A DNA stretch of 36,172 bases, taken from the NCBI GenBank assembly GCA_902768715.1, contig CACXMH010000038.1, positions 1 through 36,172 on the forward strand, read 5' to 3'. The notes beneath the pieces are model-generated. The model searched no databases and was not told the origin of the DNA. It worked only from the letters and a program-made list of their open reading frames with translations. The DNA comes from Fibrobacter succinogenes. GTDB taxonomy: Bacteria > Fibrobacterota > Fibrobacteria > Fibrobacterales > Fibrobacteraceae. Positions 2,309-16,900 of the stretch are shown one piece after another. The translations under genes were made by a program, and so were the position numbers. The first letter of the stretch is position 1; each line of letters begins with the position of its first letter.

Positions 2309-2587
2309 ATGTCAATGGTGAAAAAAAACGGCTACTGTCTTTATAAATGCGATGGCTGCGGAACAAACGGAAAATCTTGGGAAGAAGATGAACTTCCTGA
2401 TGGATGGACGAAACAAGGGTTCCTTGGTTCAAGTCACTATTGTCCTCGTTGTACAGACAAAATAGACAACAACAAGGGCTCTGCTGATTTTAAAAGAACG
2501 GTTAATATCAACAACAAAGCTCAGAGTTGTGCTGGATGCGTTGTTGTCGGTTTTATCATTATTGTTATTCTTGCAGTCATTCTTTAA
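2309..2587 (+). CDS. small zinc-ribbon protein with C-terminal membrane anchor
   Basis: The protein has 92 residues. I chose the ATG at 2309 because AAAGGAG (2292-2298) precedes it at good spacing; the open frame continues upstream through non-coding, hairpin-rich DNA. Cysteine pairs C14/C17 and C45/C48 make one treble-clef or zinc-ribbon site. The last 20 residues (CAGCVVVGFIIIVILAVIL) are a single membrane segment ending at the C-terminus, so it is a tail-anchored protein with the zinc domain in the cytoplasm. This layout recalls YdjG-like zinc-ribbon membrane proteins of envelope-stress loci. It is the first gene of the cassette and lies 33 nt before the protease gene. Confidence 0.75.
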   Translation: MSMVKKNGYCLYKCDGCGTNGKSWEEDELPDGWTKQGFLGSSHYCPRCTDKIDNNKGSADFKRTVNINNKAQSCAGCVVVGFIIIVILAVIL

Positions 2588-2620
2588 GGCATTGAAATCC
2601 CTGAATATTATCAAGCAATT

Positions 2621-4228
2621 ATGTCCTATTGCGAGAACTGTGGTGCTGAATTATCTGCAGGGGCGCGATTCTGCGAAGAATGCGGTGCCGAAGTCGATTC
2701 TTATAAGGAGTCGATGAGTTCTTGGCTATCCAAAAACAGTAATGACAATCAAACTATCTGTTCTACATTCATCGGTGACTGGAAAGAAAAGTGGGCTAAC
2801 GCGGCACAAGATGCAAAAAGCGGAGAGCTCGGCATCATTATGACGGATGTTGGTGCCCTTGCTACGCAGTTATCCTGTTCCGCGACAGATTTGTGCGAGA
2901 CAATTGACGACTATGCAAGATCCGCAGCAGAGAGAGGAGTGTATTACCATCCCCTTGATTTAGACAATAACGGCATATCCAATATCAATGGGAAAGATGT
3001 ATCGACAACAATCAGACTAATAAAAACAATTGCCTCGGTTGCGCGACCTAAATATTTACTTATCCTTGGTAATGAAGATATTGTCAATGTGACATATTGG
3101 GAGAATCAATGTCGCGATAGCGATGAAAATGTCTCTGCGGATCTGCCTTATGCTACTTTAGACACAACTTCCCCTTGGGAAGGGCAACGCTTTGTTTTTT
3201 CACAAGTATTGCGTGTCGGGCGAATTCCTAGCTATAGCGGCGAGAGTTTATCACAGTTTGCGGCATATTTCAGAAATGCTCAAGTAGGTATTAATTCCAT
3301 AAATAAAATTGTTTCCTATGGTCTCTCCGCGCTTGTCTGGGAACCGGCATCCGCCTCGCAATACAACAAGATTGGTGACGGAAAGATTAACACATCGCCG
3401 AATGTTACACTAAACAATGTTTCAGTGACAATTCCTCAAAATGCGAATATACTTTTCTTTAATTTGCATGGAAGCGATCAAACTGAGTTCTGGTATGGGC
3501 AAAAAGATACGAGTTATCCAGAAGCCTTTTCTCCTGAAATTATAAAATCATTGACCGGTCCCTTTTTTCTTGGTGTTGAAGCTTGCTACGGAGCCCGCTA
3601 TGTTGGTGGCTTAGCCCCTGAGGATAGTATCGTTCTCTCGGCAATGGAAAACGGATGTTTGGCGCTACTCGGTTCAAGTAAAATAGCTTATGGTCCGTGT
3701 ACTCCTCCAGGAACATGTGCAGATGTTATTATCGGAACATTTTTAAAAGCTTTGTGTGATGGTGAAAGTGCTGGCGACGCCTACTGCGAGGGAATGAACC
3801 GCCTAATGAACTCTGAAACGCCTGATGATTCAACCATAAAAACGTTAGCAGAATTTTCCCTTTATGGCGATCCATCGGCAAGAACAAAGAAATGTATTAC
3901 AAAATCCGTCTTGGCTAAGAGTTTGGCTGAGACATCTAAGGAAATTTATGTTCCTATGCCAGATATCCGCTGCGCTGTCACAACAAAATTAGTGGATGCA
4001 AGTAACAAAGCCGTTGCAGCGTTTCGCAATAATTCTTCAAAATTCAAAGCAAATGCCAATTTCAACATTGATGACTTTTTGAAAGATGTTGAACCTAAAT
4101 ATTACAAGGTAGGACAAGACAATCTCTACCAAGCTGTTTATAACAAAGTTGTCGGGTTGCATAAGGCAACGATCAAAGTTTATTTCGATGAATATGGGAA
4201 TGTGACAAAAGAACTTTTTTCCAAGTAG
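2621..4228 (+). CDS. zinc-ribbon C25 (gingipain-type, caspase-clan) cysteine protease
   Basis: The protein has 535 residues. An N-terminal zinc ribbon has C4, C7, C18 and C21 (YCENCGAEL...FCEECGAEV). The central part (about 90-430) matches peptidase family C25 of clan CD: a hydrophobic strand FFNLHGSD with candidate catalytic H283, then FFLGVEACYGA with candidate nucleophile C322, then CLALLGSSKIAYG and the family-typical end LYGDPSA (414-420). The C-terminal hundred residues are unassigned. Classical gingipains are secreted; this protein has no signal peptide and begins with a zinc ribbon, so it should act in the cytoplasm. Its cleavage target is unknown; proteins of the same cassette or a cell-death substrate are inferences. 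No strong Shine-Dalgarno is seen. It lies 8 nt before the next gene. Confidence 0.82.
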   Translation: MSYCENCGAELSAGARFCEECGAEVDSYKESMSSWLSKNSNDNQTICSTFIGDWKEKWANAAQDAKSGELGIIMTDVGALATQLSCSATDLCETIDDYARSAAERGVYYHPLDLDNNGISNINGKDVSTTIRLIKTIASVARPKYLLILGNEDIVNVTYWENQCRDSDENVSADLPYATLDTTSPWEGQRFVFSQVLRVGRIPSYSGESLSQFAAYFRNAQVGINSINKIVSYGLSALVWEPASASQYNKIGDGKINTSPNVTLNNVSVTIPQNANILFFNLHGSDQTEFWYGQKDTSYPEAFSPEIIKSLTGPFFLGVEACYGARYVGGLAPEDSIVLSAMENGCLALLGSSKIAYGPCTPPGTCADVIIGTFLKALCDGESAGDAYCEGMNRLMNSETPDDSTIKTLAEFSLYGDPSARTKKCITKSVLAKSLAETSKEIYVPMPDIRCAVTTKLVDASNKAVAAFRNNSSKFKANANFNIDDFLKDVEPKYYKVGQDNLYQAVYNKVVGLHKATIKVYFDEYGNVTKELFSK

Positions 4229-4236
4229 GTGACGCC

Positions 4237-4521
4237 GTGGAAAAGAATGTTGAAGCCAATCAAGTCTGTCTGCAAGGAATAGTTGTATTTATGCCTGTTG
4301 ATGCGGGCAGCAAGAGTGAAACACTAGCGCCAATCCTGTATTTAAACAGGGATAAAAAGATACGACTTTATAAAAGGGGGGACAATCCCTTCGAAAACAG
4401 CAGTTTTAACGATTATGACGGAAAGCATGTTGAAGTTCAAGGCGAACTCGTTCACGGGAACAAATTAAAAGTGCTTAGCATAAGGATTATTAACAAGGAG
4501 AAAGACAATGAATTGCCCTAA
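4237..4521 (+). CDS. small OB-fold-like protein of the cassette
   Basis: This 94-residue soluble protein has a GTG start preceded by AGGTGA (4227-4232), the only reasonable start. The pattern is all-beta: VCLQGIVVFMPV, LAPILYLNRDKKIRLY, then YDGKHVEVQGELVHGN and LKVLSIRII. The last part is the typical closing of a small OB-fold (G-K-x-V-x-V-x-G-x-L). There are no cysteines for zinc and no membrane segment. Its 3' end overlaps the next gene by 14 nt, so the products are probably made together. It may bind a nucleic acid, nucleotide or partner protein; nothing in the sequence decides which. I do not recognise a named family. Confidence 0.65.
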   Translation: MEKNVEANQVCLQGIVVFMPVDAGSKSETLAPILYLNRDKKIRLYKRGDNPFENSSFNDYDGKHVEVQGELVHGNKLKVLSIRIINKEKDNELP

Positions 4522-6619
4522 CTGTAATGCTGAATTAGATGATAATGCCAAATTTTGCTCCGAATGTGGGGCGAAAATTCCTGTTCAAAGGAAAACCAAT
4601 GGGGCCGGAGTTTCTATCGGTGATAAGAATGTTATTGCGGGTGATGTTTCTATAACAAATGTCAATGCACAGGATGAAACAAAGCTTGTGAATGAATGTC
4701 ATGTATGTGGCAAACATGTTACCAATGATCAGGGACATACTTGTCCTGAATGTGGACAATTTACTTGTAACGAGTGTTTTGACAATAATAAAAAAATGTG
4801 TGATTCTTGCGTAAAAGAAAAACACAAAGTTGCATTGGACAAATATCAAAATTTTGCTTCCAAAATTTATGCAAAGGGCGCAATATCTGCAGAAGATCGT
4901 GATATTCTAGAAAAAGAAGCAGAATCATTGGACTTGTCAAGTGCGGAAAAGGAGTCTGTTGAAAATAATTTCAGGAACGAATATTCTGATTTGACTGATG
5001 CTGATAAAATAGCACTTGAAGAATGTCAAAAGAATCTTTTGGAAAACGGTGAATATGGAGAAACTGAGAAAATAACTAGCGTTTATGAAGAACATCCCAA
5101 TAATCCCGATGTCCTTGCGTGTTATGTAAGAATGATTGCCAGATCAGATGATTATGATAATGAAGAAGTTGAAAAATGGATTAAACAATTGGATTATGAC
5201 AATCCTGTTGCGCAGATGACGCTTGTCGAATTTGCCTTGATAAAAGGAGATTTGTCAAAGGCTAACAAACTAATTGATGATGCTAAGAAAAAATGGCCTT
5301 TTGACTATTTGGTGACGTGTTACGAAATTATCTTGTATTGTCTTTTTGTCAATAAAAAACAAAAATTTGAGTATTTAACTAAAATTCACGACGTATTAAA
5401 CAATCTTGGTAAGCCCACTAATATTTTTGAAGAATCTTGTGGCGAGTTCACAAAATACCTGTATAATTGGATTGTAAAATGGAAAGATGGCGAAGATGAT
5501 GATTCCGTTGACCGCTTTTTGAATCCAGAAGAATTTTATATCGATGCTGATGAACATCTTTTTGATTCCTATTGGGGAAAGTTGTGGCTTGTTGATCATA
5601 GTGATATGTTTGAGTCTCAAAAAAGAGAGGATGAAGAGACTGCGTATGCGGAATATACCGCTGAAAAGAAATCGTATCTTTTGCAAAAGGCCAATATTGA
5701 GTTTAACTCATTCACCGACAAGAGAGATTCGAATGAATATAAAACCATCAAAATTGGAACTCAAACATGGATGCTAGAGCCTCTGCGTTATGTGGAAAAG
5801 TCTGGGTTATGTTCAATTGGTCAAGGCGTAGACGACAATCGGAACATGAATTCAGAATTCTTCGCCCAAAATACTTATACATGGGCTGCAGCGATGAAAC
5901 AAAAATCGAATAAAGTAACATTCCCTTTACCCGCTCGAATTATAAATGGATTATTGTCAACCATTCCCTTTATTATACTCGGTTTAATCTTGTCATATTT
6001 TTCGGATTTTGATTCCGTATGGGATTTTGTATTCTATTTTCTGATATCGGCTGCTTTCGTTGCTTTGTTTTTATATTTATTAAAAGAAGCTGATGCAAAT
6101 GCTGTTTTGGGAAAAGATGATGAGAATGTTGAAATTGAGCTGTCTAAAGTTGAAGGTGTCTTAAAATTCTCATACTTTGTCAGTCCAATCCCAATTGTTT
6201 TAGTTGCTTTTATTTTTAGCGGGAATTTTTGGCTAATATGGATTATTGGTTCCATATTATTGGCCATTCTCTCATCTTTTGACTCCAATGTAAAATCCTC
6301 TAAATTATTCAATCAAAGCAAAATGACAATTGCTCCAGAAGGATGGCGGATTCCGTCAAAAGCCGATGTAGATAAACTATATGAATTTATGCGCAAAAAC
6401 GAAATTGATGAATCTATACATGGCAAACATGTCGGTCTTGTTAAGGCTTTATCTTCTGAACTTGCGAATTTTAGGAATTTCTGGTTGGCTGATTACATAC
6501 CACTTTCTCCAGATTACATATTCACATATTGTCGCGATTATAATCATAACGTCAAAAATCTGAGAAATAATTGCAACAATGAAGATAGAAAGTATAGAAT
6601 TTTCTGCATAAAGAAATAG
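4508..6619 (+). CDS. zinc-ribbon membrane protein with a FISUMP domain split by transmembrane helices
   Basis: The protein has 703 residues. A zinc ribbon (C3, C6, C17, C20) is followed by a Gly/Val spacer and an eight-cysteine module (C64, C67, C79, C82, C87, C90, C98, C101) that resembles a two-zinc RING/double-ribbon domain. Residues of about 105-400 are acidic and helical, possibly TPR-like. From F402 the Fibrobacter FISUMP domain begins (YKTIKIGTQTWM, W421) and continues to YTWAAAM. It is then interrupted at about 478-602 by hydrophobic stretches that look like four membrane helices. It resumes with APEGWRIPS (G612-W613) and ends YRIFCIKK. The start at 4508 overlaps the preceding gene and has GGAG (4498-4501) ahead. 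DNA is AT-rich. It may be a membrane-tethered sensor or adaptor; this is inference. Confidence 0.78.
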   Translation: MNCPNCNAELDDNAKFCSECGAKIPVQRKTNGAGVSIGDKNVIAGDVSITNVNAQDETKLVNECHVCGKHVTNDQGHTCPECGQFTCNECFDNNKKMCDSCVKEKHKVALDKYQNFASKIYAKGAISAEDRDILEKEAESLDLSSAEKESVENNFRNEYSDLTDADKIALEECQKNLLENGEYGETEKITSVYEEHPNNPDVLACYVRMIARSDDYDNEEVEKWIKQLDYDNPVAQMTLVEFALIKGDLSKANKLIDDAKKKWPFDYLVTCYEIILYCLFVNKKQKFEYLTKIHDVLNNLGKPTNIFEESCGEFTKYLYNWIVKWKDGEDDDSVDRFLNPEEFYIDADEHLFDSYWGKLWLVDHSDMFESQKREDEETAYAEYTAEKKSYLLQKANIEFNSFTDKRDSNEYKTIKIGTQTWMLEPLRYVEKSGLCSIGQGVDDNRNMNSEFFAQNTYTWAAAMKQKSNKVTFPLPARIINGLLSTIPFIILGLILSYFSDFDSVWDFVFYFLISAAFVALFLYLLKEADANAVLGKDDENVEIELSKVEGVLKFSYFVSPIPIVLVAFIFSGNFWLIWIIGSILLAILSSFDSNVKSSKLFNQSKMTIAPEGWRIPSKADVDKLYEFMRKNEIDESIHGKHVGLVKALSSELANFRNFWLADYIPLSPDYIFTYCRDYNHNVKNLRNNCNNEDRKYRIFCIKK

Positions 6620-6639
6620 CCATTTAAAAGGAGTAAAAT

Positions 6640-8880
6640 ATGAAAAAGTGCAACCATTGTGGAAAAATTCTCAAAGACACGGCAAAATTTTGCTCCAATT
6701 GTGGGCCGACTTTTGTTAGTGAAATCATAACGGTCGAAGACGCCAAGGCTTTTGCTTCTAGTGAAATCTGTCCCCAATGCGGGACTCCGATTAAACCCGG
6801 TAAAAAATTCTGTGGCGCTTGTGGTGCAAAAATTGAGGGGGCTGATTCGCAGCAGGCTCCTAAAACGGAAAATGCTTCGCAGGATAATTTTACCTTGCTT
6901 GGCTCCTATATTCGTTGGAATATCTTGGATGGCCAAATCGCAGTAAAGATTGATGAAAAAGATATTGCAGCCTATGGTAAGGTAAAGGGTTTGCAGGTGC
7001 AGGATGGTGCCAAGGCGCTCTTCTTTGTTGAAGGAAAATTTGTGGTCGAACTTGAAGCTGGTAGCTATTCCTTTAAAGAACTGGGAGCGAATGACAATTC
7101 TCCCCATGTGGATAATCCGGGTATAGTTAGACGCTTCTTCAATAATATTGTTGGATTCTTTTCTGGCCGCAGTCGTGAACGTGCCGAGGCCGCAGGGCTT
7201 TCTGCTCAGGTAAATGCAAATGTTCCCCGAGTGTCGATCGTCTTGATTCGCGATACAAAGTTCCCGTTGTTATTTGATTTGAAGGATATGCCTACGGCGA
7301 ATTTGCAGAGCGATGTAGTATTGCATGCTTTGTGCAAGATTTCTAATGTAAATGAGTTTTATAGAACACTGCTTTTGGATAAGAAGTTCGTTTGCTATGA
7401 CGAATTTTCTAAGAAAGTAAATCCGCTTGTTCAGAATGCACTTCGCAATGTGTTGGCCAAAGTAACTCCCGATCAAGTGGTGGGTGATTTGGCTCTTTAT
7501 GGTGAGGTGTTGCAGAAATTGCAGGATATCATGGCTCAGGTGTATCCGTTTGTAACCGTGACGGATGTCTTGGACATGAGCGCTTCTCGCGAAGACTTGG
7601 ATAAAATTCGTAAGCTTAAGGAAGAACTCTACGTTTCAGAACTTGAACTCGAACAGCTTACAAAGCGTAATGATTTTTTGAATCGTTTAAAAGACGAGAC
7701 GAATGCGCAGACTCTGCACGAAGCGCAAACGCAAGTTGAATTTGTTGATGCAATAGCAAAAATTGACCAGCAAAATGAGCTGAATCAATTCGAACGAGAA
7801 AAATTTGCAACAATGCTTGCCGGACAACGCCGACTGCATAATGCCAAGTCTGAAGATGAAATTCAAACGGCACTATTGGAGCTAAAGAAAAGCCAGTTGC
7901 TTCGAGATGAAGAACTTGACAATCTTGAGCACAATAAGCGTCAGCGGACCGATTTGCGCAACTTGAACGACGCTCAGATTCTTGCGTTGGCAACAATGAA
8001 CAACGAACAGGTTCTTGAACGTCAAAAAACGTTATGGGAATTTGAAATCGGTCAAAAACGCCTTGAAAATGAGTTGCAACTGCGCAGAACGCAGGATGTT
8101 TACGAAGACAATCGTCGCGAAAAGGATTTGGAATTTTCGGCTCGTAGTCGTAAGACATCTATGGAACTTGAAAAAGAAGAAATGCAGAACCAGATGGATC
8201 TGCTTCGCCAAGCAGAGACAATTCGAAATGAACGCGAAGATGCCGAACACCGCCGTGCCGAAGAAACCCGTGCTGCAGACCGAGCCCATGAAGAAGAAAT
8301 GCGCCGCCTGTTCCAGAATATGACTGTTGAACAGATTATGGTTGCCAATCCGGACTTGACTCCCGCAGCAGCCGAAGCGATGAAGGCAAAATTTGAAGCC
8401 GAAACCGCAGTGGCCCAAAATGGGAAAATCGAAGGATTGATGAAGGACATTCTGCAAACAAACCGTGAAGATCGTGCTGCAGAAATAGAAAGAATGCAAC
8501 AAGCCAATAACGCAAACAATGCCAATATGCAACAGATGATGCAGATGTTTGCACAAATGAGTGCAATGGGAATGCAGACTGCGGCAGGTGCGACACAGGC
8601 CAAAATGCAATCCCAGGCAGAAATAACAAACATTTACAAGGATCAGGCACAAAAGGCTCATTCCGATGCCCAGAAGGAAAATGACCGAATTCTTCATGGA
8701 ATGGAAACGACCGTTCGTGCCGTTGCCGGGATGAAAAATTCTCAAAATCAACAGAATAATCGCCGTAAGGATGTCGAAGATAGCACAGACACAGTTGTCT
8801 TGGAACAGAAGTGTCCGAATTGTGGAGCCTCTTTAGAAGAAGGAACATCCTTTTGCGAAGAGTGTGGCGCAAGCGTGTAA
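6640..8880 (+). CDS. SPFH/band-7-like coiled-coil protein with zinc ribbons at both ends
   Basis: The protein has 746 residues. Two N-terminal zinc ribbons (C4, C7, C18, C21 and C44, C47, C58, C61) precede an SPFH-like region at about 85-320 (FVVELEAGSYSF, IVLIRDTKFPLLFDL, YPFVTVTDVLDMSAS). A long Glu/Arg/Gln-rich coiled coil covers about 320-560, then a Met/Gln/Ala-rich stretch, and a third zinc ribbon at the extreme C-terminus (C725, C728, C739, C742). No transmembrane helix is evident. SPFH proteins assemble into large membrane-associated rings, and zinc-ribbon SPFH proteins such as B. subtilis YdjI occur with PspA-like partners. AAAAGGAG (6626-6633) sits 6 nt before the ATG. It probably forms the scaffold of the cassette; the shared ribbons may mediate assembly (inference). 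Confidence 0.8.
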   Translation: MKKCNHCGKILKDTAKFCSNCGPTFVSEIITVEDAKAFASSEICPQCGTPIKPGKKFCGACGAKIEGADSQQAPKTENASQDNFTLLGSYIRWNILDGQIAVKIDEKDIAAYGKVKGLQVQDGAKALFFVEGKFVVELEAGSYSFKELGANDNSPHVDNPGIVRRFFNNIVGFFSGRSRERAEAAGLSAQVNANVPRVSIVLIRDTKFPLLFDLKDMPTANLQSDVVLHALCKISNVNEFYRTLLLDKKFVCYDEFSKKVNPLVQNALRNVLAKVTPDQVVGDLALYGEVLQKLQDIMAQVYPFVTVTDVLDMSASREDLDKIRKLKEELYVSELELEQLTKRNDFLNRLKDETNAQTLHEAQTQVEFVDAIAKIDQQNELNQFEREKFATMLAGQRRLHNAKSEDEIQTALLELKKSQLLRDEELDNLEHNKRQRTDLRNLNDAQILALATMNNEQVLERQKTLWEFEIGQKRLENELQLRRTQDVYEDNRREKDLEFSARSRKTSMELEKEEMQNQMDLLRQAETIRNEREDAEHRRAEETRAADRAHEEEMRRLFQNMTVEQIMVANPDLTPAAAEAMKAKFEAETAVAQNGKIEGLMKDILQTNREDRAAEIERMQQANNANNANMQQMMQMFAQMSAMGMQTAAGATQAKMQSQAEITNIYKDQAQKAHSDAQKENDRILHGMETTVRAVAGMKNSQNQQNNRRKDVEDSTDTVVLEQKCPNCGASLEEGTSFCEECGASV

Positions 8881-8889
8881 TAGGGAAAT

Positions 8890-9741
8890 ATGGGTAAAGT
8901 GAGAAATGAAACAACATACCCCAAAAGAATAGAATCTCACAGAATAGATTCTCTCGCTATGCGCTTTGTCCGCGCAAAGTTTCCCAGTTATTGGATTGAT
9001 AGAGACTTAAGCGAACGTGATTATGGCATTGACCTTGCTATAGAAATATTTAATCAGAAAAACAATAGTGTGGATTCTGAAACATCTACGGGCTTATTGT
9101 CTCTAATTCAGGTCAAAGGAACAACCATTCCACTAGAAAAGCGAGATGGGTATTATAAATTTTCGAATTTTCCTGTTAGAACGCTTAATTATGCAATGCA
9201 ATTTAAAATACCATTCATTTTAATTGTTGTTTCAGTAAACAGGGATTCTTTGTTAAATTCGACTGCACATTTTTTGTGGCTACAAGATTACATCAGAAAA
9301 GATGGATATGGCTGCTTAAGGAAAGATTGGCGGCTGCATAAGAAAATTACTCTGAGAATTCCTATAGAAAATGATTTTGTTCAAAAGCAGTCTTTCTTTG
9401 AAGATTGTGTTAAAGAAGACCATTTTGAAATGGAAAAAATAGATGCAGTAAAGAAATACTATCAGATAAAATGTTATACAGAAAGTATTTCCAATGTTGG
9501 CAATTATGAACTCGTAATGGATATGTGGCTTGATTTGCTTGCATCGATTGATAAACTAGATTTTATGAAAAAGGAATATGATATCGATGATGATTTTGAT
9601 ATTGCTTTTGATATAGAAAAAGTAAAAAAACTTTGTTTGGCAATCAAAAAACAAAAATCTATAGTCGAACATCAAAAAATTTTATTACAAGAATCTTTTA
9701 AGAAAATAGAGTATATCATTTATGATAATTTTGATGAATAG
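8890..9741 (+). CDS. DUF4365 family, PD-(D/E)XK nuclease-like protein
   Basis: The protein has 283 residues and no signal or membrane segment. The N-terminal 150 residues match DUF4365: IDSLAMRFVRAKFPSYWIDRDL, then DYGIDLAIEIF with D44 and D48, then LIQVKGT with Q74 and K76. The D...QxK arrangement is the active-site signature of the PD-(D/E)XK nuclease fold, which includes DUF4365. The C-terminal 130 residues are helical, Lys-rich and unassigned. The start lies 9 nt after the SPFH gene, with AGGGA ahead of it. The DNA is the most AT-rich of the cassette (13 G/C in 9601-9660). It is the last gene of the cassette and the likely nucleic-acid effector; activity is not shown by sequence alone. 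Confidence 0.8.
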   Translation: MGKVRNETTYPKRIESHRIDSLAMRFVRAKFPSYWIDRDLSERDYGIDLAIEIFNQKNNSVDSETSTGLLSLIQVKGTTIPLEKRDGYYKFSNFPVRTLNYAMQFKIPFILIVVSVNRDSLLNSTAHFLWLQDYIRKDGYGCLRKDWRLHKKITLRIPIENDFVQKQSFFEDCVKEDHFEMEKIDAVKKYYQIKCYTESISNVGNYELVMDMWLDLLASIDKLDFMKKEYDIDDDFDIAFDIEKVKKLCLAIKKQKSIVEHQKILLQESFKKIEYIIYDNFDE

Positions 9742-12503: not shown

Positions 12504-13898
12504 ATGGTAGCAGTAGTCAAAAACAAGTCTAAAAAAGAGCTGGTGTATCTTTGCACCGAATGCGGAAACACCACCCCCAAGTGGGCAGGCAAGTGCCCGT
12601 TCTGCGGAGCCTGGAGCACCCTGAAAGAACATTCCGTCGAAATCACGCCGGAAGGCGTCCGTTCCGGTCGAGGTTTGGGCGGGCCCGTGCATCAGGTGGT
12701 GGCCCTGAAAGACGTTGCCGCCGAGGACACCAAGCGGCTCAGTACCGCCAATAGCGAGCTGGACCGAGTCCTGGGGGGCGGCTTTGCGCCCGGCTCCCTG
12801 GTGCTTATCGGCGGCGACCCAGGCATCGGAAAGTCCACCCTGGTGCTTTCCACCCTGGCGGTAATGAACGCCGCCGGAGTCAAGAGCCTGTATGTGAGCG
12901 GCGAAGAGAGCGCCGTCCAGGTGAAACTCCGGAGCGAACGGCTGAACGTGGCCGGTAGCGACATGCTTCTACTGTGCGAAACCAGCCTGGAAAAAATCCT
13001 GGACGAGGCCCAAAAGGTCAAACCCCAGATTCTGGTCATCGACTCCATCCAGACGGTCTATAAGCAGGACCTTTCCGGCACGCCGGGTTCCATGTCCCAA
13101 CTCCGGGAATGCACCCTGGACCTGATGGTTTTTGCCAAGAACACGGGCTGCATTACCGTGCTCATCGGGCACGTGACCAAAGACGGCCAGATTGCAGGCC
13201 CACGCATCTTGGAACATATGGTAGATACGGTCATCTACTTCGAGGGCGACCGGAATCACCAGTATCGTATTATTCGCTCCATCAAGAACCGCTTCGGCGC
13301 TACCGACGAAATCGGCGTGCTGGAAATGACGGGCCACGGCCTCACTCCCGTGCTGAACCCGAGCCTCGTGTTCCTGCAGCAAGGGACACCCCCTACCCCA
13401 GGTAACGTGGTGTGCTGTACCATGGAAGGCACTCGGGCCATGCTTTTCGAGACTCAGGCCCTTGTTAGCCAGACCAGTTTTGCCGTACCCCAGCGGGTGG
13501 CAGCGGGCATCGATCCCAAGCGGCTCACCATCATCCTCGCCCTGCTAGAAAAATTCGGCGGTATTTCCATCGGAGCATCCGACGTGTTTGCCAGCATCGC
13601 GGGCGGCATGAAGGTGAACGACACTTCTTCGGACTTGGCCCTCGCCCTCGCCATCGTGAGTAACCATCTGGGGATTCCCGTGCCAAGGCAGACCATCGCC
13701 ATGGGAGAACTGGGGCTTTCCGGCGAAATCCGCAGCGTTCACCTTCTGGAACAGCGGCTGAAAGAGGCCAAACGACTAGGGATGAACCAGGCCCTGATTC
13801 CCGGAAACGGAAAACTCCCCGAAAGCATTCAGGGAGTTGAAATCGTGAAAGTCAGTACCATCGCCGACGCCGTCAAGTGGGTCATGGACCGCAAGTAA
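12504..13898 (+). CDS. radA: DNA repair protein RadA (Sms)
   Basis: The protein has 464 residues, normal for the family. RadA is a RecA-related, DnaB-type helicase that promotes branch migration during recombination repair. A zinc finger with C17, C20, C31 and C34 (CTECG...CPFCG) is followed by Walker A GGDPGIGKST with K110. The RadA-specific KNRFG motif is at 261-265, and a Lon-like C-terminal domain (VNDTSSDLALALAIVSNHL, LGLSGEIR) completes the protein. The open frame reaches upstream to 12213, but that part is the thrS-like relic and terminator region; the family start and the TATATT element support the ATG at 12504. DNA is very GC-rich (41 G/C in 12781-12840). Confidence 0.96.
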   Translation: MVAVVKNKSKKELVYLCTECGNTTPKWAGKCPFCGAWSTLKEHSVEITPEGVRSGRGLGGPVHQVVALKDVAAEDTKRLSTANSELDRVLGGGFAPGSLVLIGGDPGIGKSTLVLSTLAVMNAAGVKSLYVSGEESAVQVKLRSERLNVAGSDMLLLCETSLEKILDEAQKVKPQILVIDSIQTVYKQDLSGTPGSMSQLRECTLDLMVFAKNTGCITVLIGHVTKDGQIAGPRILEHMVDTVIYFEGDRNHQYRIIRSIKNRFGATDEIGVLEMTGHGLTPVLNPSLVFLQQGTPPTPGNVVCCTMEGTRAMLFETQALVSQTSFAVPQRVAAGIDPKRLTIILALLEKFGGISIGASDVFASIAGGMKVNDTSSDLALALAIVSNHLGIPVPRQTIAMGELGLSGEIRSVHLLEQRLKEAKRLGMNQALIPGNGKLPESIQGVEIVKVSTIADAVKWVMDRK

Positions 13899-13948
13899 CG
13901 AGGAGAATTTATCTATATTTTCGGGAAAGAAGACTAAAGGAATGAATT

Positions 13949-16900
13949 ATGAATAAATTCCCGAAAATCCTTTTCCCTTGCCTACTGGCTTCTGCTTTAA
14001 TCACCGCCTGTGGCGATAGCAGTTCGAAATCAGAGGATTCCGAAGTTGTTTCCATTTCCAAGAAAAACGTAAGCGGTTTTTCACAGAAAGGGCCCTTTGT
14101 GAAAGGAGCTTCTGTACATCTGTACGAACTGGACTTTGAAACCCTTACGCAAACAGGGAACTCCTTCCTTGGAAAAATCAAAAGTGACCAGGGAGACTTT
14201 GTCATAGAGAACATCAACCTCAATTCCTCGTTTGCCCTGCTCGAAGCCACAGGATATTTCAAGAATGAAGTGACTGGAAAAAAATCCACTAGCACCATAA
14301 CCCTGAATGCCGTCTCAAACCTACAAGACAGGGAATCGGTGAACATCAATATACTCACGCACCTTGAGTTCGAGCGTGTCAACTATCTAATCAAGAAGGG
14401 TTCCAGTATTGCAGACGCAAAAGCACAGGCAGAAGCGGAAATACTTAAATCCTTCGGAGCAAAAGAAAACGGCAAATTTTTCGAAGAACTAGATCTCTTC
14501 GGTTCTGCGGACGAAAGCGCCATACTTCTCGCCATATCCATCCTAATGATAAACAATCAGTCCGAGGCAGACCTGACGGACTTCTTTACTGAATACTCGT
14601 CTGACATCGAAAAAGACGGCACATGGGACAACAAGAAACGCAAAGAAGAACTGGCCTCCTGGGCTCTTGACCAAATCGCGACAGACAATTTTGCCTCTAT
14701 CCGCAAAAATGTAGAATCACTAAACACAGGCAAGGCCCCAGACTTTGAAACCCATATCAAGAATTTCATTGACATGGTATTCCCCTGCAACAGCAAAACA
14801 GTAGGCGACACGCTGCACTCTGAAAGCGGACGTTTATTCGCCTGTAAAAAGGAAGAAAGCGGAAACTACAGTTGGCAAGCATCAGAAGGCTTCCTTAGCC
14901 AAAACCATTCGTGGACCTACAAAGACGGAGCCAAGTTCAACTTTTCAAACGGCGATTTTCATTCCGCCGCATGGTGGGACATGTATGCTAGCGAAGACTC
15001 CAAAATAGAATGGCCCGCAAAATTGGGCAAGGGAAATAACGCATTCCAGGCAATCATTGACACCTGCAAGGGTATTTGCGGACAAGCCACCAAAGGCGAA
15101 TATCTTGGGTTCACTCTCAATTTCACCGCCAAAGGGGTAGGCGAATCAACGGAATCTACGGATATTTCCGCTTGGGGTGGTTTGTGCGTTGAGTCAGAGG
15201 GAGACCTGAACATTGAAATCATTCCGAAGGATCAAGAAAATGAAACGGAGTACGGCAATTTCTATTATAATGTAACCAAAGCAGGCATAATAGACATCCC
15301 CTGGGAGTACTTTATACAACCTGTATGGGGCAAGCCCTCCGTTCTGGAAAGGAACCTAAAGGCCGCAGTGGGCATTAAGTTCAGAATCGAGAACAATGGG
15401 AAGTTCAAACTCAAGGCTATCGGCCCCATGGGAACCTGCGGCAAAGCGACAGTGAAGCCTGTCGAACAGAACGAATATGGCGGCGGAGAATACGACTGTG
15501 AAACATACGGAACCTGCTACATCGAATCAGAAAACGAATGCAACAGCGCCAATGATGGCATAAAAGGCATTAACGAGTATGGCGACTATGTAGTATGTCA
15601 AAATGGCGAATGGGTACTTGGCTGCAGAGTTGATGGTGATTGCGGTGAAACAGGAGTTAATTGCAAAGAAACCGATGTCTGCAACGAATACGGTGAAAAA
15701 ATCGAATGCGACAAATCTAACGAGGGCGAGGCAATCCCTGCAAATATTGGCGGTTACAATATTTGCAGCAGCGGAAAATGGGTTTACCTTTCTTCAGAAG
15801 ATTACGAAAATTGGACTGCAGACATAGACGGAAGAGTCTGTTCAAAAGACTTTGACCAGATAAAAGGTGCCGAAGACGGCTCAAACATCTACACCTGCTA
15901 CAAAGGATTCTGGTACGACAGCAAAATCTTCCCCTGGACAAAAGAAAGGGATGCCTACCTAAATTCTAGCATCACCTACAAAACTTTGAAAGACACCCGC
16001 GACGGTCAAAGCTACGCCACCATTGACATCGGCCCATACACATGGATGGCACAGAACCTTAACTATGCCGATACGGCCACCATGACCAACCTTAAAGAAA
16101 ATATCCAATGCTATTACGGTTACGACATCAACTGTGATTTCGGAGGACGTCTGTACAGCTGGACAGCCGCCATGAACATTGACCCAAAATACAAAGAAAA
16201 GTCCGCAGTCAATATTATAACAGAAAAAAATCAGGGCGTATGCCCCGATGGCTGGTGGCTCCCCGATACAACCGAATACGCCTATCTGTACAAGGTCACC
16301 GGAGAATCCATTGACGATCTCAGGTCAAAAGGTGTTGAATCCTGGAAATCTTTCGCCACAGATAAATACGGATTCAGTTTAATCAATTCGGGATGGGCCC
16401 CAAATTGGGGAACTATAGACGATCAATGGCCAACCCTTTGGTTTGCTTCTGAAAACCCAGAAAGCCCGAAAAAAGAAGCCATGGGATTAAATGCGAGTGA
16501 CTGGTGGACCCGCGTAAGCGGGAATGAAAAGGGGAATTACTACTCCGTACGGTGCATCACCTACAATACTCCATGCACATCAAGTAACGATGGCGCGAAA
16601 ATTAATGATCCAAAAATGGACTTTGTATGCAAAAACGGAACCTGGAAGGCTGCGGTTCCTACCAATGTAACAGGTCTAACAGTTGAGGGCGACAGGTTTG
16701 TCTCGATAAAGTGGACAGCCCCCGAAAGCAACAAAAATATTGTAAAATTCAAACTTTACTATAAAACCGAGATAATGGAAGATTTCGCAGAGGCCGGTCA
16801 ATGGACAGCTGAGCCTGAAAATCATGAAATTTTCACCGATACTCAGGACTTTGTAAACCTCAGTGAAATTCAGAAAATCACGTTCGCCGTAATCCCAGTT

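Follow-up and report, generated by a model that had tools for sequence, protein, structure and literature searches.

Closest described systems and comparison with the locus

To our knowledge, nearly all described peptidases of family C25 are secreted virulence enzymes whose propeptide belongs to the same chain. They cleave after Arg or Lys. In the gingipain RgpB, a loop of the propeptide puts an Arg into the S1 pocket (PMC4357240), and in Kgp the P1 Lys is bound through D516 and T442 (PMC6426963). The potempins of Tannerella are cognate inhibitors that are encoded directly before the KLIKK proteases (PMC7296668). Staphostatin, the inhibitor of staphopain, is a beta-barrel protein that binds in a substrate-like manner (PMC7863939). 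For the cytoplasmic Bacillus protease Isp1, an endogenous protein inhibitor, IPI, has been reported (PMC3901451). Craspase (TPR-CHAT/Csx29), SAVED-CHAT and separase-securin are clan CD proteases of the cytoplasm that regulatory partners keep in check.

The locus considered here lies in a Fibrobacter succinogenes contig (CACXMH010000038.1), of which a stretch of 36,172 nucleotides, the window, was analysed. It encodes a gingipain-type protease (positions 2621-4228, + strand) and, after a gap of 8 nt, a small protein of predicted OB fold (4237-4521, + strand), termed the partner below. The protease shares with RgpB and Kgp the catalytic fold over residues 69-435 (Z 31 and 28.5), the His-Gly and E-x-Cys motifs and the Pfam C25 match. 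Gingipains have an export signal and an in-chain propeptide of about 230 residues, whereas the Fibrobacter protease is without both; it also differs in its N-terminal zinc ribbon, its C-terminal region and its separate OB-fold partner gene. The locus resembles the potempin loci in having a small protein gene beside a protease, and the partner comes close to Potempin A (Z 6.4) in predicted fold, with no sequence relationship seen; potempins, however, are secreted lipoproteins directed against metallo- and serine proteases. Staphostatin offers a parallel as a small substrate-like inhibitor of a bacterial cysteine protease, but it has Gly at P1 and another type of barrel, and staphopain is secreted and related to the papain fold. 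The Bacillus pair is comparable in its cytoplasmic setting and differs in that it consists of a subtilisin and an Ig-like inhibitor. Craspase, SAVED-CHAT and separase match the protease far more weakly than the gingipains do (Z about 14-16 versus 31), and the locus is without CRISPR, SAVED or TPR parts.

The protease and its predicted structure

The protease comprises 535 amino acids. It begins with a zinc ribbon at residues 3-25 (2627-2695, + strand), which has the spacing C4-x2-C7-x10-C18-x2-C21 and matches Zn_Ribbon_1 of Pfam (E 3.7e-8, 33.4 bits against a cut-off of 25). When the N-terminus was read directly, the ribbon was found without a hydrophobic signal stretch, in agreement with an earlier sequence-only reading of the locus, which had described a ribbon and no export signal. 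The catalytic domain spans approximately residues 69-421 (2825-3883, + strand), of which Peptidase_C25 (PF01364) covers 123-421 (E 2.4e-7, 30.8 bits against a gathering score of 23); in the aligned family, 64 of the 72 members match PF01364 at E<=0.01. The motifs from which that reading had proposed C25, namely H283-G284, E320-A-C322, LLGSSKIAYG (349-358) and LYGDPSA (414-420), are all in place. LYGDPSA ends the catalytic domain but not the protein, since about 115 residues follow. The predicted catalytic residues His283 (codon 3467-3469, + strand) and Cys322 (codon 3584-3586, + strand) are invariant in 72/72 aligned relatives, together with G284, E320 and G324. D368 and D174 are invariant as well and are candidates for the acid of the S1 pocket.

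The model of the protease, built with AlphaFold from a 66-sequence alignment, had a mean pLDDT of 86.7 and a pTM of 0.79. Its top fold match was RgpB (4ief_B; Z 31.4, 2.7 A over 309 residues), with further gingipain matches to RgpB 1cvr (Z 30.9) and Kgp (about 28.5); in Foldseek searches of solved structures, RgpB and Kgp likewise came first, with E about 1e-11. The best match outside C25 was separase, and separases, Csx29/CHAT proteases and caspases were all far below the gingipains (Z 16 to 11), with separase, Csx29/TPR-CHAT and SAVED-CHAT among this second tier. H283 directly follows strand 277-281, and C322 likewise strand 315-320, which are the clan CD positions. The gingipain matches stop near residue 435, before the part in which a secreted gingipain would have its IgSF domain and its type IX C-terminal domain. 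Searched by sequence, with either the protease or its profile as query, the PDB gave no gingipain; these were found by the fold search alone. Best matches outside clan CD, which would have refuted the earlier proposal, did not occur, the gingipains leading by far (Z 31 versus 16 for separase).

The product of 2621-4228 is a peptidase of family C25, clan CD, in which all catalytic residues are kept. This membership holds for the catalytic domain and not for the architecture of a secreted gingipain, with its signal peptide and in-chain inhibitory propeptide, since the N-terminus is a ribbon and the catalytic domain starts at about residue 69. The enzyme is apparently intracellular and, by analogy with other C25 enzymes, would cleave after Lys or Arg.

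Distribution of cytoplasmic C25 proteases

Searches of plasmids by tblastn gave leaderless, ribbonless homologues on plasmids of Rhizobium, Bradyrhizobium, Sinorhizobium and Novosphingobium, several of which carry the annotation 'C25 family cysteine peptidase'. In GTDB genomes, 136 relatives were found by a scan, and the best 80 of the 136, which were fetched, belong to Bacteroidota, Pseudomonadota, Spirochaetota, Lentisphaerota, Clostridia, Actinomycetes, Planctomycetota and other groups, including one archaeal assembly. In total, 87 protease loci were examined, and a convincing export signal was found in none of the 72 aligned sequences. Predicted cytoplasmic C25 proteases are widespread, occurring in many phyla and one archaeon over these 87 loci. 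As leaderless relatives occur in so many phyla, the intracellular C25 enzymes would form a broad group that is not defined by the ribbon. About 67 of 86 relatives are leaderless and yet ribbonless; the earlier idea that the ribbon takes the place of a signal peptide was rejected, most relatives having neither.

Viral contigs and phages held no relative of the protease, and a phage origin is therefore not supported. Within Fibrobacterota, the protease and the partner occur in the same 2 of 168 genomes and the remaining genomes have neither; six weaker protease matches in the phylum are short and lie within long unrelated frames. A protease-partner pair was also seen on a contig labelled as a Klebsiella pneumoniae MAG, which may be misbinned.

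The OB-fold partner

The partner, of 94 amino acids, was overlooked in the sequence-only reading. Itself free of a ribbon, it would suit the regulatory role of the gingipain propeptide, which is missing from the protease chain, better than ribbon contacts would. Members of its family adjoin the protease in 83 of 87 loci, mostly downstream and, in 7 Treponema-type loci, upstream; gene order varies and linkage does not. Of these partners, 57 came first, from a search with a pattern containing the conserved Lys (see below), and the other 26 from a profile; the latter are all basic at this position (25 K, 1 R). In 35 genomes searched in full, 37 proteases and 36 partners were found; every listed partner match adjoins a protease, and where a genome has a second protease it also has a second partner. 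Protease and partner distances are correlated (Mantel r 0.75, p 0.001), and it should be borne in mind that the relatives share kinship, a non-independence that inflates the counts. In four of the 87 loci (L086, L021, L024 and L031) the partner was not found. One of these, L086, holds a Simkaniaceae protease (7779-9296) with an intact-looking catalytic domain and a C-terminal SK, and there no recognisable partner gene was seen nearby or elsewhere in the genome. In the open-access literature, no description of the pair was found.

The partner model (pLDDT 81, pTM 0.65) has a predicted OB fold of the order b-b-b-a-b-b, with strands at 9-21, 29-37 and 40-45, a helix at 55-60 and strands at 64-72 and 76-84. 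Its lists of structural matches are filled with OB proteins; the best-ranked are ssDNA-binding proteins, with which Potempin A is only tied. Searches with the partner profile gave nothing useful in the PDB and NCBIfam, and in Pfam weak OB-type families only, DUF5818 being matched by 12 of 52 members. Its top conserved columns are Gly14 and Lys26 (codon 4312-4314, + strand), the latter being K in 71 and R in 1 of 72 sequences. Lys26 is located in an exposed loop, GSKSE, which joins strands 1 and 2 in the model, and this basic-residue loop, [ST]-K-[SN]-E across the family, is the most conserved feature of the surface.

The protease itself ends in Ser-Lys (4220-4225, + strand). A terminal K or R is present in 82 of the 87 relatives, compared with 29% of the other ORFs at the same loci, a count that is not to be read as a probability because the sequences are related. 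Four of the five exceptions run 1-2 residues past a basic residue (HAR-GL, HAR-GG, HAR-GA and HRK-S), and the fifth, from L031, is short. The likeness of this end, often S-K/R, to the S/T-K of the partner loop is suggestive only.

Proposed mode of regulation and alternatives

The specificity of C25 enzymes, the RgpB propeptide and the precedents of the potempins and staphostatin together favour a detached, substrate-like inhibitor. We would give an even chance to an intracellular Lys/Arg-specific C25 protease that is held by such a partner, separate and of OB fold. The partner would bind the protease in the cytoplasm and its Lys26 would enter the S1 pocket as a substrate-like residue; the protease would stay latent, or turn the partner over only slowly, until the partner is removed. 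What the propeptide does in-chain in gingipains would have moved to a separate gene, and the protease's own conserved terminus, Ser/Ala-Lys/Arg, may occupy this pocket in the manner of a product. For the gut clade described below, zinc ribbons on the protease and on the operon neighbours would probably co-localise them, perhaps at the membrane. Inhibition by the partner is inferred. Against it, OB folds serve many functions and ssDNA-binding proteins head the partner's structural matches; moreover, the blocking P1 residue of staphostatin is Gly, whereas a Lys-Ser bond, placed in a flexible loop, might just be cleaved.

Such a cut is the essence of a reading that we regard as unlikely, in which the partner is a substrate or released effector: a protease activated by some signal would cleave it after Lys26 and the cut partner would act elsewhere. 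The Lys26 loop does look like a Lys-specific site, and the strict linkage and matching copy number also speak for this reading; on the other hand, conservation extends over the entire small domain, a single compact fold to which no effector region has been added. Craspase, in which RNA recognition controls the CHAT protease, is the model for another possibility, which is distinctly doubtful, namely that the partner is a sensor and activator similar to SSB or PriB that binds nucleic acid or another ligand by the loop between strands 1 and 2. The ssDNA-binding proteins at the top of the partner's matches and the presence of separase, Csx29/TPR-CHAT and SAVED-CHAT among those of the protease point in this direction, but a Z of about 7 for the partner is at the level of a common fold, and conservation falls on a single short loop, a Phe and glycines and does not trace an aromatic or basic face for binding DNA. 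Quite improbable, finally, is a housekeeping role, in which an ordinary intracellular peptidase would need the partner as an obligate structural subunit or as a helper in folding. Outside the gut clade there is no consistent third partner except an S8 subtilase in 7 loci, and PADLOC families match the proteases by one stray hit among 72, as would suit a housekeeping enzyme; the patchy occurrence in Fibrobacterota (2/168) and the low-GC island, however, do not suggest housekeeping in this phylum, and the basic loop would be left unexplained.

The zinc-ribbon clade and the operon of the window

The ribboned proteases are monophyletic (20/20 sequences, support 1.0). They come from Fibrobacter, Treponema and other Spirochaetota, Lentisphaerota and Clostridia, mostly in herbivore gut assemblies, and the tree places a single addition of the ribbon to the protease, in a gut-bacterial clade. 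Because this clade crosses phyla, horizontal transfer within it is likely. Neighbours that bear ribbons occur beside 14 of 19 ribboned and 0 of 67 ribbonless proteases (Fisher p 2.6e-12), and of the five ribboned proteases without such a neighbour three lie at contig ends. As all of these belong to one clade, the link has to be counted once, as one evolutionary association, rather than as many separate cases. An intracellular protease held to its neighbours by ribbon contacts had been suggested from the sequence; the C25 assignment, the clan and the apparently intracellular location stand, while for contacts between ribbons the data are compatible and correlative, within this one clade.

In the window, the apparent operon starts with a gene for a small protein with CxxC pairs and a C-terminal hydrophobic stretch (2309-2587, + strand), probably tail-anchored; a GGAG ribosome-binding site precedes its ATG at 2309, and 33 nt separate it from the protease. 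The partner gene is overlapped by 14 nt by the gene of a zinc-ribbon protein (4508-6619, + strand; ribbons by Pfam) that also has hydrophobic segments and a FISUMP domain (TIGR02145, E 9.9e-17). It is followed by a 746-residue protein with three zinc ribbons, also detected by Pfam (6640-8880, + strand), homologues of which are found beside or near the protease in 16 related loci. We took this protein to resemble an SPFH-type protein, an identity that was not confirmed, its profile having matched only ribbon-containing chains. After a gap of 9 nt, the operon ends with a DUF4365 protein (8890-9741, + strand; PF14280, E 4.1e-13), which was not seen as a conserved neighbour at the loci of relatives and has a match to PDC-M02A of PADLOC (E 0.0018); whether it belongs to the system is uncertain. 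The six genes (2309-9741) have a GC content of 39% against 51-53% around them, the DUF4365 gene being lowest at 31%, and the operon is probably a horizontally acquired island.

A second Fibrobacter operon (L010) runs on to a 948-residue zinc-ribbon protein (13209-16055) with the look of a right-handed beta-helix repeat. Elsewhere in the window, at 1020-1753 on the - strand, an acetyltransferase-like ORF of 174 residues, without a Pfam match, adjoins a short ORF, and the two could be a toxin-antitoxin-like pair.

Cellular role and significance

At seven loci (L034, L039, L040, L044, L057, L073 and L088) the C25 protease is preceded by an S8 subtilase gene of the same orientation, with a gap of 2-37 nt in five and 251-287 nt in two; no signal peptide was seen in those subtilase N-termini that look reliably called. 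In Bradyrhizobium, a trypsin-like protease is found upstream. These neighbours are hints of intracellular proteolytic relays. Among alphaproteobacterial pairs, L005, L006 and L008 are near ferritin-like genes, with radical SAM genes in L005 and L006 and a halogenase gene in L005, surroundings resembling a biosynthetic cluster.

A wider role can be imagined, though we think it fairly unlikely, in which the pair is a widely transferred protease/antidote module: a detached OB-fold pro-region would silence the cytoplasmic C25 protease, and loss or inactivation of this antidote would lead to cleavage of self proteins after Lys/Arg, making the protease an executioner in immunity or cell death, and the gut version would work in a zinc-ribbon membrane assembly. 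No phage, viral or clear PADLOC link was found for the family. If the proposed regulation by the partner is true, a large intracellular C25 branch with a separate, co-inherited regulator would show that another gene can carry the job of the propeptide, and the protease and partner would make an easily tested two-protein system. The caspase-like enzymes of bacteria that are linked to immunity and cell death would also gain a further candidate for a regulated protease.
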